64,000 bases of DNA, from assembly GCF_030814815.1 (NCBI RefSeq), contig NZ_JAUSVR010000002.1:434001-498000 (forward strand), in the 5' to 3' direction. How positions within the stretch are numbered: position 1 is the stretch's first letter; each line of letters opens with the position of its first letter. The DNA comes from Ancylobacter amanitiformis. GTDB taxonomy: Bacteria; Pseudomonadota; Alphaproteobacteria; Rhizobiales; Xanthobacteraceae. A model generated the notes under the pieces. That model had not been told where the DNA came from, did no database searches, and saw nothing but the letters and a program-made list of their open reading frames with translations. The position numbers and the translations under genes are program-made. Of the stretch, positions 24,010 to 64,000 are shown in pieces.

Positions 24010-24187
24010 CCGCCCGGTCGTCCGTTTCGTCGAATCGAACGACCTCATCTGGGGCCCGACCCATAAGCGTCCTCATCCCGCGTGTCTGGCGCGTCCTTCC
24101 CTCTCCCAGTTGAGCAGAGGTGGCACGCGGAGCGGGTCGGTGAGGGGCTCCAGCGATTGCGAAGCGTCGAAGACCCCTCAACCCCAA

Positions 24188-24273
24188 CCCTCTCCGTCAA
24201 ACTCGGCTGTTGCCGAGTTTGACCTTCCAAGAGATCGAACCCGGCAACAGCCGAGTTCGATGCGGGGAGAGGG
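24188..24273. repeat. Nested inverted-repeat block (possible MITE-like or REP-like element)
   Basis: Outer arms ccctctccg and cggggagaggg enclose two adjacent hairpins: 24197-24222 with perfect 11-bp arms around tgtt, and 24234-24261 with 12-bp arms and one mismatch around aaca. The core of the second hairpin is close to the reverse complement of the first. Such intergenic palindromes are common in GC-rich Hyphomicrobiales. Confidence 0.65.
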
Positions 24274-24351
24274 AGGAAAATCATCGTTCCCGTGCACATT
24301 TGCAATTGCGAGCGAGATACTGAGGGGCTCGTTCGAGTACACCCGGACGAG

Positions 24352-24391
24352 CATCCTTCGAGGCCCGGCTTCAGCCGGGCACCTCAGGATG
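24352..24391. repeat. Intergenic palindrome, possible bidirectional terminator
   Basis: About 40 bases, imperfect palindrome running from catcct to aggatg with a cccggc/gccggg core and a tca loop. It resembles the catccttcgag...ctcaggatg elements scattered between genes in many Hyphomicrobiales (from memory). Confidence 0.55.
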
Positions 24392-24415
24392 AGGGAGCGT
24401 TATCGGTCGGCGCCG

Positions 24416-48188: not shown

Positions 48189-48198
48189 GCGCGCCCGA

Positions 48199-48681
48199 TC
48201 AGGCGTTCTTCCGGCGCGCCAGCACGTACAACACCGGCAGGAGCACGGCATAGATCAAGGTGATGACCAGCAGGAGCCCGAAATTGTTCTTCGAGGTGTC
48301 GCCCGCTTCGAAGGCCTCGCGAAAATGCCCGTAGGCGACGCCGAAGGAAAACAGGCTGTAATAGCCGACGACCGGCGCCTTGAAATCCAGCGGGCGCCAG
48401 AACGACAGGATCGCGACGATGCCGATGGCGGCGTCCGCGACGCCGATCTCGAACTGGAACGGGCTGACCTCCCAGCCGATGCTCGCCGCCGCCATATGCG
48501 GGAACACGATGTGGAAGAAGCCGGCCCACACATACGCAATGCCGGCCGAGAGCAGCAGCCATCCCAGCAGCCGGGCGGGATAATAGGCTGGGCTCTTCGT
48601 CAGCGCCGCCGCAAGGAAGGCCGACACGAACAATATTTCTGGCAGATTACCCAGAATGAACGCGATCACCGCCTGAATCAT
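48199..48681 (-). CDS. Small integral membrane protein (DUF6790-like)
   Basis: 160 residues from the ATG at 48681, with GGGGGAAG before it; upstream in-frame codons to 48774 are not family-like. Four to five membrane segments; the motifs FHIVFP and FSFGVAYGHFREAF recur in DUF6790 proteins as I recall them. Function unknown. Convergent with the transglutaminase-like gene, 10 bases apart. Confidence 0.7.
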   Translation of the reverse strand: MIQAVIAFILGNLPEILFVSAFLAAALTKSPAYYPARLLGWLLLSAGIAYVWAGFFHIVFPHMAAASIGWEVSPFQFEIGVADAAIGIVAILSFWRPLDFKAPVVGYYSLFSFGVAYGHFREAFEAGDTSKNNFGLLLVITLIYAVLLPVLYVLARRKNA

Positions 48682-48985
48682 GAACTTCCCCCTGCCACAG
48701 ATTGCATGTCGATGACCCCCCTCCGCCTGGGGGAGAGCCTTGGACGTCCCCATGCACCCGGCGGAGCCGTGCATGAAAGCACGATGTCACTCTCGGTTGC
48801 CTTCGCGACGACGGGTCTTGTCCGCGATCGCGAGGCAAGCCTGGTGTTCTGCAAACGACCTTGCCGCTTCGGCCGGAACGCGCCGGCACAGTTGCCCGCC
48901 TCAGCGGGCGCCCTTTTCCGCCGCCGGCGCGTCGGATTGAAATGGTATTGACGTAATTCTCGTGTGACGCAAGCCCCGGCGCGTT
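48682..48985. other. Spacer between the DUF6790-like gene and purN
   Basis: 304 bases without a gene. It holds gcccgc/gcgggc around ctca at 48894-48909, followed by gccctttt on the plus strand, terminator-like but with no plus-strand gene ahead of it. Confidence 0.4.
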
Positions 48986-60704: not shown

Positions 60705-61478
60705 ATGTTCTCGCTTGCCATTCCCTCGTTGGCCATTCCCTCGTTGGCCATTCCCTCGCTTGCCAGTCCCGCGCTTGCGATCGGCCATGACGGACTGTCG
60801 ATCGCGCCGAGCCTGCTGCTGGCGGTGGCGCTCGGGGCGCTGGTCGGGCTTGAGCGGCAGTTTCGCCAGCGCTTCGTCGGGCTCACCACCCATGCGCTGG
60901 TCGCCCTCGGGGCGGCGGCCTTCAGTTCGCTCGCCCTCCTCATCGGCGATGGGCCCGAGTTGCGCATGGGCGCGCAGATCGTCACCGGCATCGGCTTTCT
61001 CGGCGCCGGCCTCATCATGCGCGATGGGCTCAGCGTGCGCGGCCTGTCCAGCGCGGCCACGGTGTGGGCGACGGGGGCGATCGGCACGCTGGCGGGATAC
61101 GGCCAGCCGATCGCGGCGATCGAGACCGCCGGCCTCGTCATCGCCATCAATCTGGTGCTGCCACGGTTGGGCGGCATGCTGGAGCGCTTCGCCCCGCAGC
61201 GCGAAGAGGTGGAGCGCTTCTATGTGATCGAACTGAAATGCGCCGCGCAGGACGAGGCCGATATCCGCGCCCGCCTGCTTGCGGCGATGCAGGTTCATGA
61301 GCTGCGCCTGCACGCGCTGGAGAGCCACGCCCTTGCCGCCAGCGGCTCCGTGGAGGTGGAGGCGATCGTCTATTGCGCGCGGGAGGAGGACGAGCTGGTG
61401 GAGCGGCTGGTGGGCGAACTCAGCGCCTCGCCGCAGATCTTCGCCGCGAAATGGACATCGACCGCGCCGCCGGAATAG
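60705..61478 (+). CDS. MgtC/SapB-family membrane protein
   Basis: 257 residues from the ATG at 60705, six bases after GGGGG; ATG 60699 and GTG 60657 are alternatives. N-terminal pentapeptide repeat SLAIP three times, then variants, directly before IGHDGLS. The MgtC membrane domain follows: LGALVGLERQFRQRFVGLTTHALVALGAA, IVTGIGFLGAGLIMR and SAATVWATGAIG, four membrane segments, and a C-terminal cytoplasmic ACT-like part. MgtC proteins affect Mg2+ limitation and F-ATPase in other bacteria. Confidence 0.88.
   Translation: MFSLAIPSLAIPSLAIPSLASPALAIGHDGLSIAPSLLLAVALGALVGLERQFRQRFVGLTTHALVALGAAAFSSLALLIGDGPELRMGAQIVTGIGFLGAGLIMRDGLSVRGLSSAATVWATGAIGTLAGYGQPIAAIETAGLVIAINLVLPRLGGMLERFAPQREEVERFYVIELKCAAQDEADIRARLLAAMQVHELRLHALESHALAASGSVEVEAIVYCAREEDELVERLVGELSASPQIFAAKWTSTAPPE
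60711..60785 (+). repeat. 15-bp tandem repeat, about five copies, at the 5' end of the MgtC gene
   Basis: Units at 60711-60725, 60726-60740, 60741-60755, 60756-60770 and a diverged fifth at 60771-60785. The second and third are identical. They encode SLAIP, SLAIP, SLAIP, SLASP and ALAIG in the first hydrophobic stretch. Confidence 0.85.
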
Positions 61479-61513
61479 TCCGCATGCCCCGTCCGGGACG
61501 CGGGGGCATTGCC

Positions 61514-61549
61514 GCTTGGATCGACGCTTGGACAGACGCTTGGACATTG
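61514..61549 (+). repeat. 12-bp tandem repeat, three copies, upstream of aspS
   Basis: gcttggatcgac, gcttggacagac and gcttggacattg at 61514-61525, 61526-61537 and 61538-61549, in the noncoding spacer between MgtC and aspS. Confidence 0.75.
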
Positions 61550-61570
61550 ACAAAACGCCTGCCTGCATGC

Positions 61571-61627
61571 ACCCCTCCGCGCGCCCCGCGAGAGGGGTGT
61601 TGACCTTTGACGGCCCGGCAAGGGCCG
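61571..61627 (+). promoter_or_regulatory. Two hairpins in the aspS leader
   Basis: acccctc/gaggggt (61571-61577 and 61592-61598) and cggccc/gggccg (61611-61616 and 61622-61627). TTGACC at 61600-61605 lies between them. A leader control element is possible; no known class recognised. Confidence 0.35.
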
Positions 61628-61649
61628 GAAGCAGCCTCGGGAATAAGCC

Positions 61650-63536
61650 ATGCATCGCTATCGCACGCACACCTGCGGGGCCCTTCGCGCGAGCGAAATC
61701 GGCGAAACCGCCCGCCTCTCGGGCTGGTGCCACCGCATCCGTGACCATGGCGGCGTGCTGTTCATCGATCTGCGCGACCATTATGGCCTGACGCAGGTCG
61801 TGGTCGATCCCGACAGCCCGGCCTTCAAGCTGGCCGAAACCGTGCGCGCGGAATGGGTGATCCGCGTGGATGGCCGCGTGCGCTCGCGCCCCGCCGGCAC
61901 CGAGAACCCGGACCTGCCGACCGGGCAGGTGGAAATGTATGCCACCGAGATCGAGGTGCTGGGCCCCGCCGCCGAGCTGCCGCTCCCGGTTTTCGGCGAT
62001 GTCGAGTACCCGGAAGAGACGCGGCTGCGCTACCGCTTCCTCGACCTGCGCCGCGAGAAGCTGCACAAGAACATCATGACGCGCGGCGCCATCATCGACG
62101 CCATGCGCCGGCGCATGAAGACGCAGGGCTTCTTCGAGTTCCAGACGCCCATACTCACGGCGTCCTCGCCGGAAGGCGCGCGCGACTTCCTGGTGCCGAG
62201 CCGTCTGCATCCCGGCAAGTTCTACGCGCTGCCGCAGGCGCCGCAGCAGTACAAGCAGCTGATCATGATGAGCGGCTTCGACCGCTATTTCCAGATCGCC
62301 CCGTGCTTCCGCGACGAGGACCCGCGCGCCGACCGCCTGCCGGGCGAGTTCTACCAGCTCGACCTGGAGATGAGCTTCGTCGAGCAGGAAGACGTGTTCG
62401 CCGCCGTCGAGCCGGTCATCACGGGCGTGTTCGAGGAATTCGCCGAGGGCAAGCCGGTCACGCAAAACTGGCCGCGCATTCCCTATGCCGTGTCGATGCA
62501 GAAATACGGCACCGACAAGCCGGACCTGCGCAACCCGATCGAGATGCAGGACGTCTCCGAGCATTTCCGCGGCTCGGGCTTCAAGGTGTTCGCGCGGCTG
62601 CTGGAAGACCCGAAGAACCGCGTCTGGGCGATCCCCGGCACCGGCGGCGGCTCCCGCGCCTTCTGCGACCGCATGAATTCGTGGGCGCAGGGCGAAGGCC
62701 AGCCGGGCCTCGGCTACATTATGTTCCGTCGCGAGAAACTCTCAGACGAAGCGATGACTGATCCGACTCATATACAGTCGCAAATTGCGCTTCGTCAGCT
62801 TCATCCCGATCCTAAGAATGCAGACTACAAGCATGGCGGACTGGACTACGTCGCCGGTGGTGGGCCTGTCGCAAACAATATCGGGCCTGAGCGAGTTGAA
62901 GCCATTCGGCTGCAGCTCGATCTTAAAGAAGGCGACGCCGCCTTCTTCGTTGCCGGCAACCCGGAAAAGTTCGTCAAGTTTGCCGGTAGCGCCCGCACCA
63001 AGGTGGGCGAGGAACTGAAGCTGGTCGATTTCGACCGCTTCGAACTGGCCTGGATCGTCGACTTCCCGTTCTATGAGTGGAACGAGGACGACAAGCGGGT
63101 CGATTTCTCGCACAACCCCTTCTCCATGCCGCAGGGCGGGATGGACGCGCTGAACGGGCAGGACCCGCTGACCATCAAGGCGTTCCAGTACGATATCGCC
63201 TGCAATGGCTATGAGATCGCGTCGGGCGGCATCCGCAACCACCGCCCGGAGGCCATGGTGAAGGCGTTCGAGCTGGCCGGCTATGACGAGGAGACGGTGA
63301 AGGAGCGCTTCGGCGGCATGTACCGCGCCTTCCAGTATGGCGCGCCGCCCCATGGCGGCATGGCGGCGGGCGTGGACCGTATCGTCATGCTGCTCTGCGG
63401 CGTGACCAACCTGCGGGAAATCTCGATCTTCCCGATGAACCAGCAGGCGCAGGACATCCTGATGGGCGCGCCCAACGAGGCCAGCCCGAAGCAGCTGCGC
63501 GAGCTGCATATCCGCACCAACATCCAGGAAAAGTGA
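61650..63536 (+). CDS. aspS: Aspartyl-tRNA synthetase with an internal insert
   Basis: Class II synthetase charging tRNA-Asp (and possibly tRNA-Asn). 628 residues against about 590 in relatives. Order: N-terminal OB fold ([20 protein letters not shown]), motif 2 [19 protein letters not shown], the bacterial GAD insertion domain, and motif 3 [14 protein letters not shown]. After residue 362 (GYIMFRRE) come about 39 residues, where relatives have about four, before [14 protein letters not shown]. That stretch, 62736-62852, has lower GC, codons such as ATA and TCA, and nested inverted repeats. The frame stays open, so the protein is probably functional. Confidence 0.95.
62736..62852 (+). repeat. 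Palindrome-bearing in-frame insert in aspS
   Basis: Arms gacgaagcg at 62745-62753 and cgcttcgtc at 62788-62796 are exact complements; inside them gactg (62756-62760) and cagtc (62775-62779) also pair. GC over 123 bases here is about 51% by my count, against clearly higher values on both sides. Boundaries are approximate, set from the protein alignment I remember. Confidence 0.6.
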
Positions 63537-63610
63537 ACCGCGCGCGGGGGTGAGGCCAGGGCCCCACCTCTCGCCCCGGCCTTACTCAGCCTTACGATAT
63601 CACCCCAAGC

Positions 63611-64000
63611 TCACGGCTTCGCGGGCTTGGCCGGCAGCGCGGGCTTCGCCGGCTGGGCCGGTTTGGCGGGCGGCACGCCCGGCTGCGCGGGCTTGGCCGT
63701 GTGCACCGGCGGCGCGTCCGGCGCGATCACCGTGACGTTGATCTCGTCGATCAGGTCGAGCGGATCCTCGCCCTGCAGGGTCTCGATGATCATGCCGACC
63801 GGCAGCGCATCATTCCCGCGCGGAGTGATGCGCAAGGCCAGCGTGCCCAAGGGCCGTTGCAGGAAGCCGATGAAGCTCTGCGATGCCGCCTCCAGGTCCG
63901 GCCGGTCGGCGAGCGTGGCCGAGAACAGCAATTCGGCGAAGCCGGCCAGCAACTGGCGGGTTCCCTCGGGATCGAGGCCCTGTTCCCTAGCCGCCTCCTC
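63611..64000 (-). CDS. Conserved hypothetical protein (5' end outside window)
   Basis: C-terminal 129 residues of a gene whose start lies beyond the right edge; the frame is open to base 64000. A structured part (ATLADRPDLEAASQSFIGFL, GTLALRITPRGNDALPVGM, GEDPLDLIDEINVTVIAP) is followed by a Pro/Ala/Lys tail of KPAQP, AKPAQP and AKPALP units. I do not recognise a named family. Convergent with aspS, 74 bases apart. Confidence 0.6.
   Translation of the reverse strand, partial: EEAAREQGLDPEGTRQLLAGFAELLFSATLADRPDLEAASQSFIGFLQRPLGTLALRITPRGNDALPVGMIIETLQGEDPLDLIDEINVTVIAPDAPPVHTAKPAQPGVPPAKPAQPAKPALPAKPAKP

Follow-up and report, generated by a model that had tools for sequence, protein, structure and literature searches.

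The window analysed here is a stretch of 64,000 nucleotides from Ancylobacter amanitiformis (genome G000). It contains aspS, the gene of aspartyl-tRNA synthetase (AspRS), which is the one AspRS match in this genome at E <= 1e-50. The features of the locus are:

61650..63536, plus strand: aspS, aspartyl-tRNA synthetase, 628 amino acids (NCBIfam NF001750, E 4e-244)
62718..62933, edges approximate, plus strand: replaced, foreign-looking tract, comprising the insert and about 26 codons downstream (from codon use and from the density of mismatches to G028, a sister genome)
62730..62855, plus strand: stretch of extra residues in the hairpin of the GAD domain, with short helices predicted at low confidence (from the congener alignment and an AlphaFold2 model)
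62745..62796, no strand: exact 9-bp inverted repeat with arms at 62745-62753 and 62788-62796 and a 34-bp spacer, not clearly beyond chance

The aspS insert and the replaced tract

The original prediction, made from this DNA alone, had called attention to the unusual length of the enzyme. The length of 628 residues is confirmed, and the excess does lie between two conserved stretches: in the alignment the span from GLGY to ANN holds 58 residues in the window AspRS and 20 in most congeners, and the GAD hairpin of the window enzyme is longer by about 38 residues. The low G+C content claimed for the insert (about 51%) was likewise found, with 49.6% over 62736-62852 and a GC3 of 48.7% between flanks of about 90%; for the whole tract of about 215 bp, GC3 is about 50% compared with 90% around it. 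The codons ATA, TCA and ACT, described as rare in the flanks, are each used at most once in the remainder of aspS. The odd codon use extends to about 62930, close to the predicted end at 62935, and mismatches against the sister genome are at background again by 62950.

The 64-kb window and G028 align collinearly; the main blocks have 94-96% identity, and the last block, which starts inside the tract, has 88.6%. Three stretches of at least 30 bp are unaligned (24016-24412, 48189-48985 and 62725-62862), the third of which is the aspS insert and the one placed inside a conserved gene. The first and second overlap several open frames. Along aspS, mismatches per 25 bp are mostly 0-4 around the insert, 13-19 at 62725-62874, 6-8 at 62875-62949 and 0 just after; about 215 bp, that is the insert and some 26 codons downstream, have therefore been replaced. 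The AspRS flanks of the two genomes are 1.00 and 0.99 identical in amino acids, and the segments are unlike. In a second sister pair (G029 and G018, 95-96% identity over 15.5 kb from the first to the last aligned base) there is one unaligned stretch of at least 20 bp, and judged from coordinates its position matches the aspS insert of G029.

A short foreign-looking tract has replaced the native loop between two conserved stretches of AspRS. A recombined patch from another lineage, one of the two origins offered at the outset, is supported by the sharp edges, the foreign codon use and a sister genome that is nearly identical outside the tract, but no donor was found in 397 genomes of the order, 268 of which gave a match. 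Among the matches listed, only G173, besides the window's own, spans the whole tract, at 38% identity including the conserved tail. For the whole AspRS, the best identity is 69% in plasmids and about 51% in phages. Close relatives either lack the insert or carry other inserts at the site, which speaks against an old lineage feature that all of them would share with normal codon use.

The second origin offered was a palindromic mobile element. The 9-bp inverted repeat on which this was based is exact, but repeats of this length are not clearly more frequent here than by chance. When the codons of the insert were shuffled, 11 of 1000 shuffles contained one; this is nominally rare, but the repeat had been picked post hoc. 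Stretches as long as the insert also contain them, 8 of 171 when overlapping stretches of aspS outside the insert are taken and 29 of 544 when the remainder of the 64 kb is cut into non-overlapping pieces. The longest inverted repeats in other long inserts measure 4-8 bp. Further copies of the insert in other genes, proposed as a check, did not appear in a DNA search of the genome, which returned the self match and a next best hit with E 0.24 over 17 bases. No RNA family reached its gathering score in 61400-63600, where four matches with E up to 1 were obtained.

As to whether the insert is a surface loop, the AlphaFold2 model places it in the GAD hairpin, between strands 355-363 and 399-404, with a helix predicted at 372-384. 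Model confidence exceeds 90 in the GAD domain (blocks 251 to 360 and 401 to 480) and is 55-69 in the insert; parts of the catalytic domain were modelled poorly (blocks near 40), and local placement alone was used. The much longer insert of A. radicis, with 85 extra residues, is predicted to form mainly helices, also at low confidence. On its upstream side the tract follows a strongly conserved stretch. In its confident parts the model has the fold of bacterial AspRS with a GAD domain (E. coli, 1c0a and 1eqr; P. aeruginosa, 4wj3 and 4wj4), which are the same enzyme; in contrast, the solved chains whose alignments were compared (4wj3 and 4o2d) have only a short connection at the insert site.

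Two other peculiarities of the GAD domain were seen. A different insertion of about 40 residues lies further downstream in AspRS of several genera (L156, L157, L158, L159, L160 and L161). It is alike between genera, most copies containing NGRLG..VRVPVP...FP.EVAN.YRNLRP, and five of its six carriers form one clade of the AspRS tree. The insert-bearing locus L013 (genome G004) has a second unusual GAD loop, KHKSANEVGGTGPIARAFC, just before RAFCDRMN.

Distribution and composition of inserts at the hairpin

Long segments occupy the site in 6 of 30 Ancylobacter genomes (G000, G003, G004, G015, G028 and G029), and all of them are different. When the segment is disregarded, AspRS sequences of five named Ancylobacter species, and one from a record labelled Bosea sp. 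117, match sequences from genomes of the genus exactly. In the family sample 388 of 391 genomes gave an AspRS match, and a hairpin insert is present in at least 26 of the 388. Twenty-five of these belong to the 38 genomes with more than one match, and G004, with a single match, is the twenty-sixth. The remaining multi-match genomes carry a different insertion (six: G110, G137, G525, G537, G556 and G584), lack an insert (four: G451, G491, G530 and G627) or were left unassigned (three: G086, G488 and G504). Of the 141 order-sample genomes with a match, at least 7 have the hairpin insert, and among the 132 with a match in the class sample it is found at least in the window genome, in G333 (read) and in G336 (from a gap between matches); single-match genomes were read in part, so that the counts for family, order and class are minimum values. 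G488, a genome with 6% contamination, has aspS on both contig C104 and contig C77; one copy lacks an insert and the other apparently has one.

Segments were extracted from 155 loci, with L171 (G336) left out. They measure 20 residues in 103 loci, 19-25 in 14 more and 36-105 in 38, shares that are not frequencies, the set being enriched for inserts and holding some genomes twice. The 38 long-segment loci include two repeats of one species and thus represent 36 distinct inserts. On an AspRS tree calculated with the segment removed (FastTree; 161 rows, 39 with insert; L142, L143, L144, L152 and L163 left out as too short), which has many weak branches, the insert state requires at least 26 changes; 200 shuffles of the labels gave at least 30, with a mean of 35.

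Other genes provide a measure of how unusual this is. Among named loci, internal inserts of at least 12 residues are present in 4 of 80 AspRS, and in 1 of 68, 0 of 57 and 0 of 23 copies of three neighbour genes. Threonyl-tRNA synthetase (ThrRS) shows none within the matched part in 30 of 30 genomes of the genus (family-match span 1701-1713 nt), and neither does GatB in 29 of 29 (1410-1428 nt); both were judged by span, the GatB tail alone being read by residue. The inserts are scattered over the AspRS tree, and repeated replacement at this one site exceeds that in the control genes.

A. radicis, insert-free Ancylobacter and, on the upstream side, the window share the arrangement of genes around aspS. 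Within these comparisons among Ancylobacter neighbours, no gene arriving together with the insert was found in A. radicis. Several aspS neighbours are 80-91% identical between Ancylobacter species, and a minus-strand gene downstream of aspS (63611-64000 of the window; L062:10171-12189) is 31-65% identical; its copy in A. radicis has no Pfam match.

Four viral contigs carry aspS, and the same four were recovered with the GAD piece as query. One of them, L173, has an aspS insert and, 0.6 kb downstream, a gene of phage-repressor-like make-up, which recurs together with its neighbours beside aspS in two others; in the fourth, aspS is next to a gene with domains like those of RNase D. Given this recurrence and the RNase D-like neighbour, the genes next to aspS on these contigs were read as host flanks rather than phage genes.

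Low GC3 is general among the long segments. Of 45 genes with a long segment, 44 have a lower GC3 in the segment than in the flanks (the difference averages -0.30, compared with -0.05 in 116 genes with short segments), and the lowest 15-codon GC3 window falls in the segment in 40 of 45 long and 15 of 116 short cases; counted among the 45 are L173, the six genes that have the other insertion, and L062 and L078, which repeat one species. Net charge is zero or negative in 37 of the 38 long-segment loci. Ten of the 36 distinct inserts were compared with Pfam, where nothing passed a curated cut-off (lowest E 0.0045), and with PHROGs, where the lowest E was 0.017.

At BLASTP E <= 1e-3 three groups of inserts extend across genera or families: L040/L151/L154/L155; L045/L146/L148/L153, joined via L102 to L039/L044; and L048/L167. 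For 23 of the 36 distinct inserts, the window's included, no relative was detected at this threshold, and the window insert weakly resembles that of L048 (E 0.058). The inserts of L151 and L155 share 0.90 of their amino acids and 0.44 of their third positions, and their flanks 0.91 and 0.89 of amino acids and 0.70 and 0.72 of third positions; low insert GC3 alone lowers third-position identity and accounts for part of this contrast, so that synonymous divergence of insert and flank is not directly comparable. By the NG86 method, dS was saturated or above 1 in 19 of 19 pairs tried, some of which were not of one group. From these sequence comparisons the grouped inserts, and these alone, are taken to be protein modules under constraint, and not random sequence of recent origin. 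Different modules occupy this one site in related bacteria, and some types cross genera with constraint at the protein level.

Possible explanations of the variable hairpin

Repeated replacement of the loop in soil Hyphomicrobiales, mostly by unrelated foreign-looking DNA, suggests a pressure to keep changing. As a tentative best explanation, to which we give somewhat less than even confidence, we propose that a polymorphic module of the AspRS GAD hairpin is exchanged horizontally, that the window insert is one of its alleles, and that the module is swapped by recombination, with its variability selected by a putative binder. Homologous recombination in the conserved flanks would swap the tract, and the module would alter the surface that AspRS presents at the hairpin. 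Selection may then favour change as an escape from whatever binds there, a phage protein, an antibacterial toxin or another antagonist being candidates. The hairpin is probably kept variable by such a putative binding agent. Several points weigh against the exchanged-module reading: most lineages keep the short form, as the 20-residue majority of the extracted loci indicates; dips of GC3 are not confined to inserts, one of 0.55 in a neighbour gene of L079 and one of 0.39 in the AspRS of L111 occurring without an insert; the genomes searched yielded no donor, and in A. radicis no gene had arrived together with the insert; and the evidence of age and constraint is confined to the grouped inserts.

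A further step, which is possible but rather doubtful at present, would be to regard the GAD hairpin as an immunity determinant. A phage protein or toxin would bind it, bacteria would escape by importing ready-made modules, and AspRS would be a polymorphic recognition locus.

The main rival, which we regard as unlikely, is that the insert tunes AspRS itself. No match to asparaginyl-tRNA synthetase (AsnRS) exceeds the family cut-off in any of the 30 Ancylobacter genomes, and 29 of them have GatB; AspRS therefore presumably supplies both Asp-tRNA(Asp) and Asp-tRNA(Asn) in this genus, and hairpin variants could adjust its contact with tRNA or with GatCAB, for which it would also charge tRNA(Asn). 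Within the genus the GatB tail occurs in two forms (16 and 13 of 29 genomes, G024 being counted by span), one of which is present in 6 of 6 insert-bearing and 10 of 23 insert-free genomes (Fisher p = 0.02). This value ignores phylogeny, however, and only 2 to 5 independent pairs are available, which is not enough for a test. Across the family, GatB length class does not differ between insert-bearing (17 long, 2 short) and insert-free genomes (47 long, 7 short; p = 1), and with five genomes of other families the tendency is opposite (17/7 compared with 47/7, p = 0.11); types outside the genus were assigned by match length only, with 78 of 80 genomes counted and G043 and G103 left out for split matches. 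The GatB tail as covarying partner is hence suggested within the genus and not borne out by length class in other genera. Moreover, between sister genomes AspRS is nearly constant apart from the insert. The two tail forms (L200-L228) themselves differ in a middle tract and are alike on both sides, as if swapped.

A hairpin that is merely permissive, in which foreign tracts brought in by recombination would persist without conferring any advantage, also appears unlikely to us, though less so for the inserts that have no relatives. The poor order of the insert in the models and the 23 inserts without a detectable relative are in line with it. However, module groups keep their amino acids while third positions diverge, and the neighbour genes of the same set are nearly free of internal inserts, as GatB and ThrRS are of such inserts by span. 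Segment lengths also fall into two clusters, 19-25 and 36-105 residues, although split matches were one ground for choosing loci, a choice that favours long segments.

It is still less probable that the DNA rather than the protein is attacked, with a homing endonuclease or similar nuclease targeting a conserved stretch of aspS and recoded or interrupted alleles escaping. The recoded part of the tract beyond the insert and its position after a strongly conserved stretch would fit such a target, but the amino acids conserved inside the module groups suggest that the protein is what matters. A small mobile palindrome of the Rickettsia type is very improbable despite the in-frame position and the inverted repeat, since the insert exists in one copy, the repeat is near chance and has no counterpart of equal length in other long inserts, and the codons flanking the insert were replaced as well.

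Significance and comparison with known systems

Aminoacyl-tRNA synthetases are commonly taken as conserved housekeeping enzymes. An exchanged variable module in a single-copy synthetase would point to an antagonist or partner of the translation machinery, for which the hairpin offers a concrete bait, and would account for annotated aspS genes of unusual length. Synthetases with insertions are a known kind, as are recognition modules that recombine. For the two combined in a single-copy synthetase we found no description, and among the titles and abstracts listed by literature searches there was no account of a variable AspRS insert or of hypervariable AspRS in Alphaproteobacteria.

Rickettsia palindromic elements are in-frame extra residues within housekeeping genes, and the aspS insert resembles them in this respect. 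It differs in having no second copy, no clear palindrome and no shared repeat, on which grounds an element of this type was rejected. Synthetases are known targets in bacterial competition: agrocin 84 hits LeuRS, and microcin C mimics aspartyl-adenylate in the AspRS active site. With microcin C the target is AspRS, as would be the case here; in contrast to our proposal, the site is the active site and not the GAD hairpin.

Target recognition domains of type I restriction enzymes are exchanged specificity modules. Like the aspS segments, they have conserved flanks, unlike swapped segments, low G+C content and types distributed across lineages; unlike them, the aspS module lies in a single-copy translation enzyme without a known recognition role. 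By this analogy, the pattern of one site with unlike modules, replacement between sisters, constrained types that cross genera and low GC3 resembles that of recognition loci, which are traded because difference pays.
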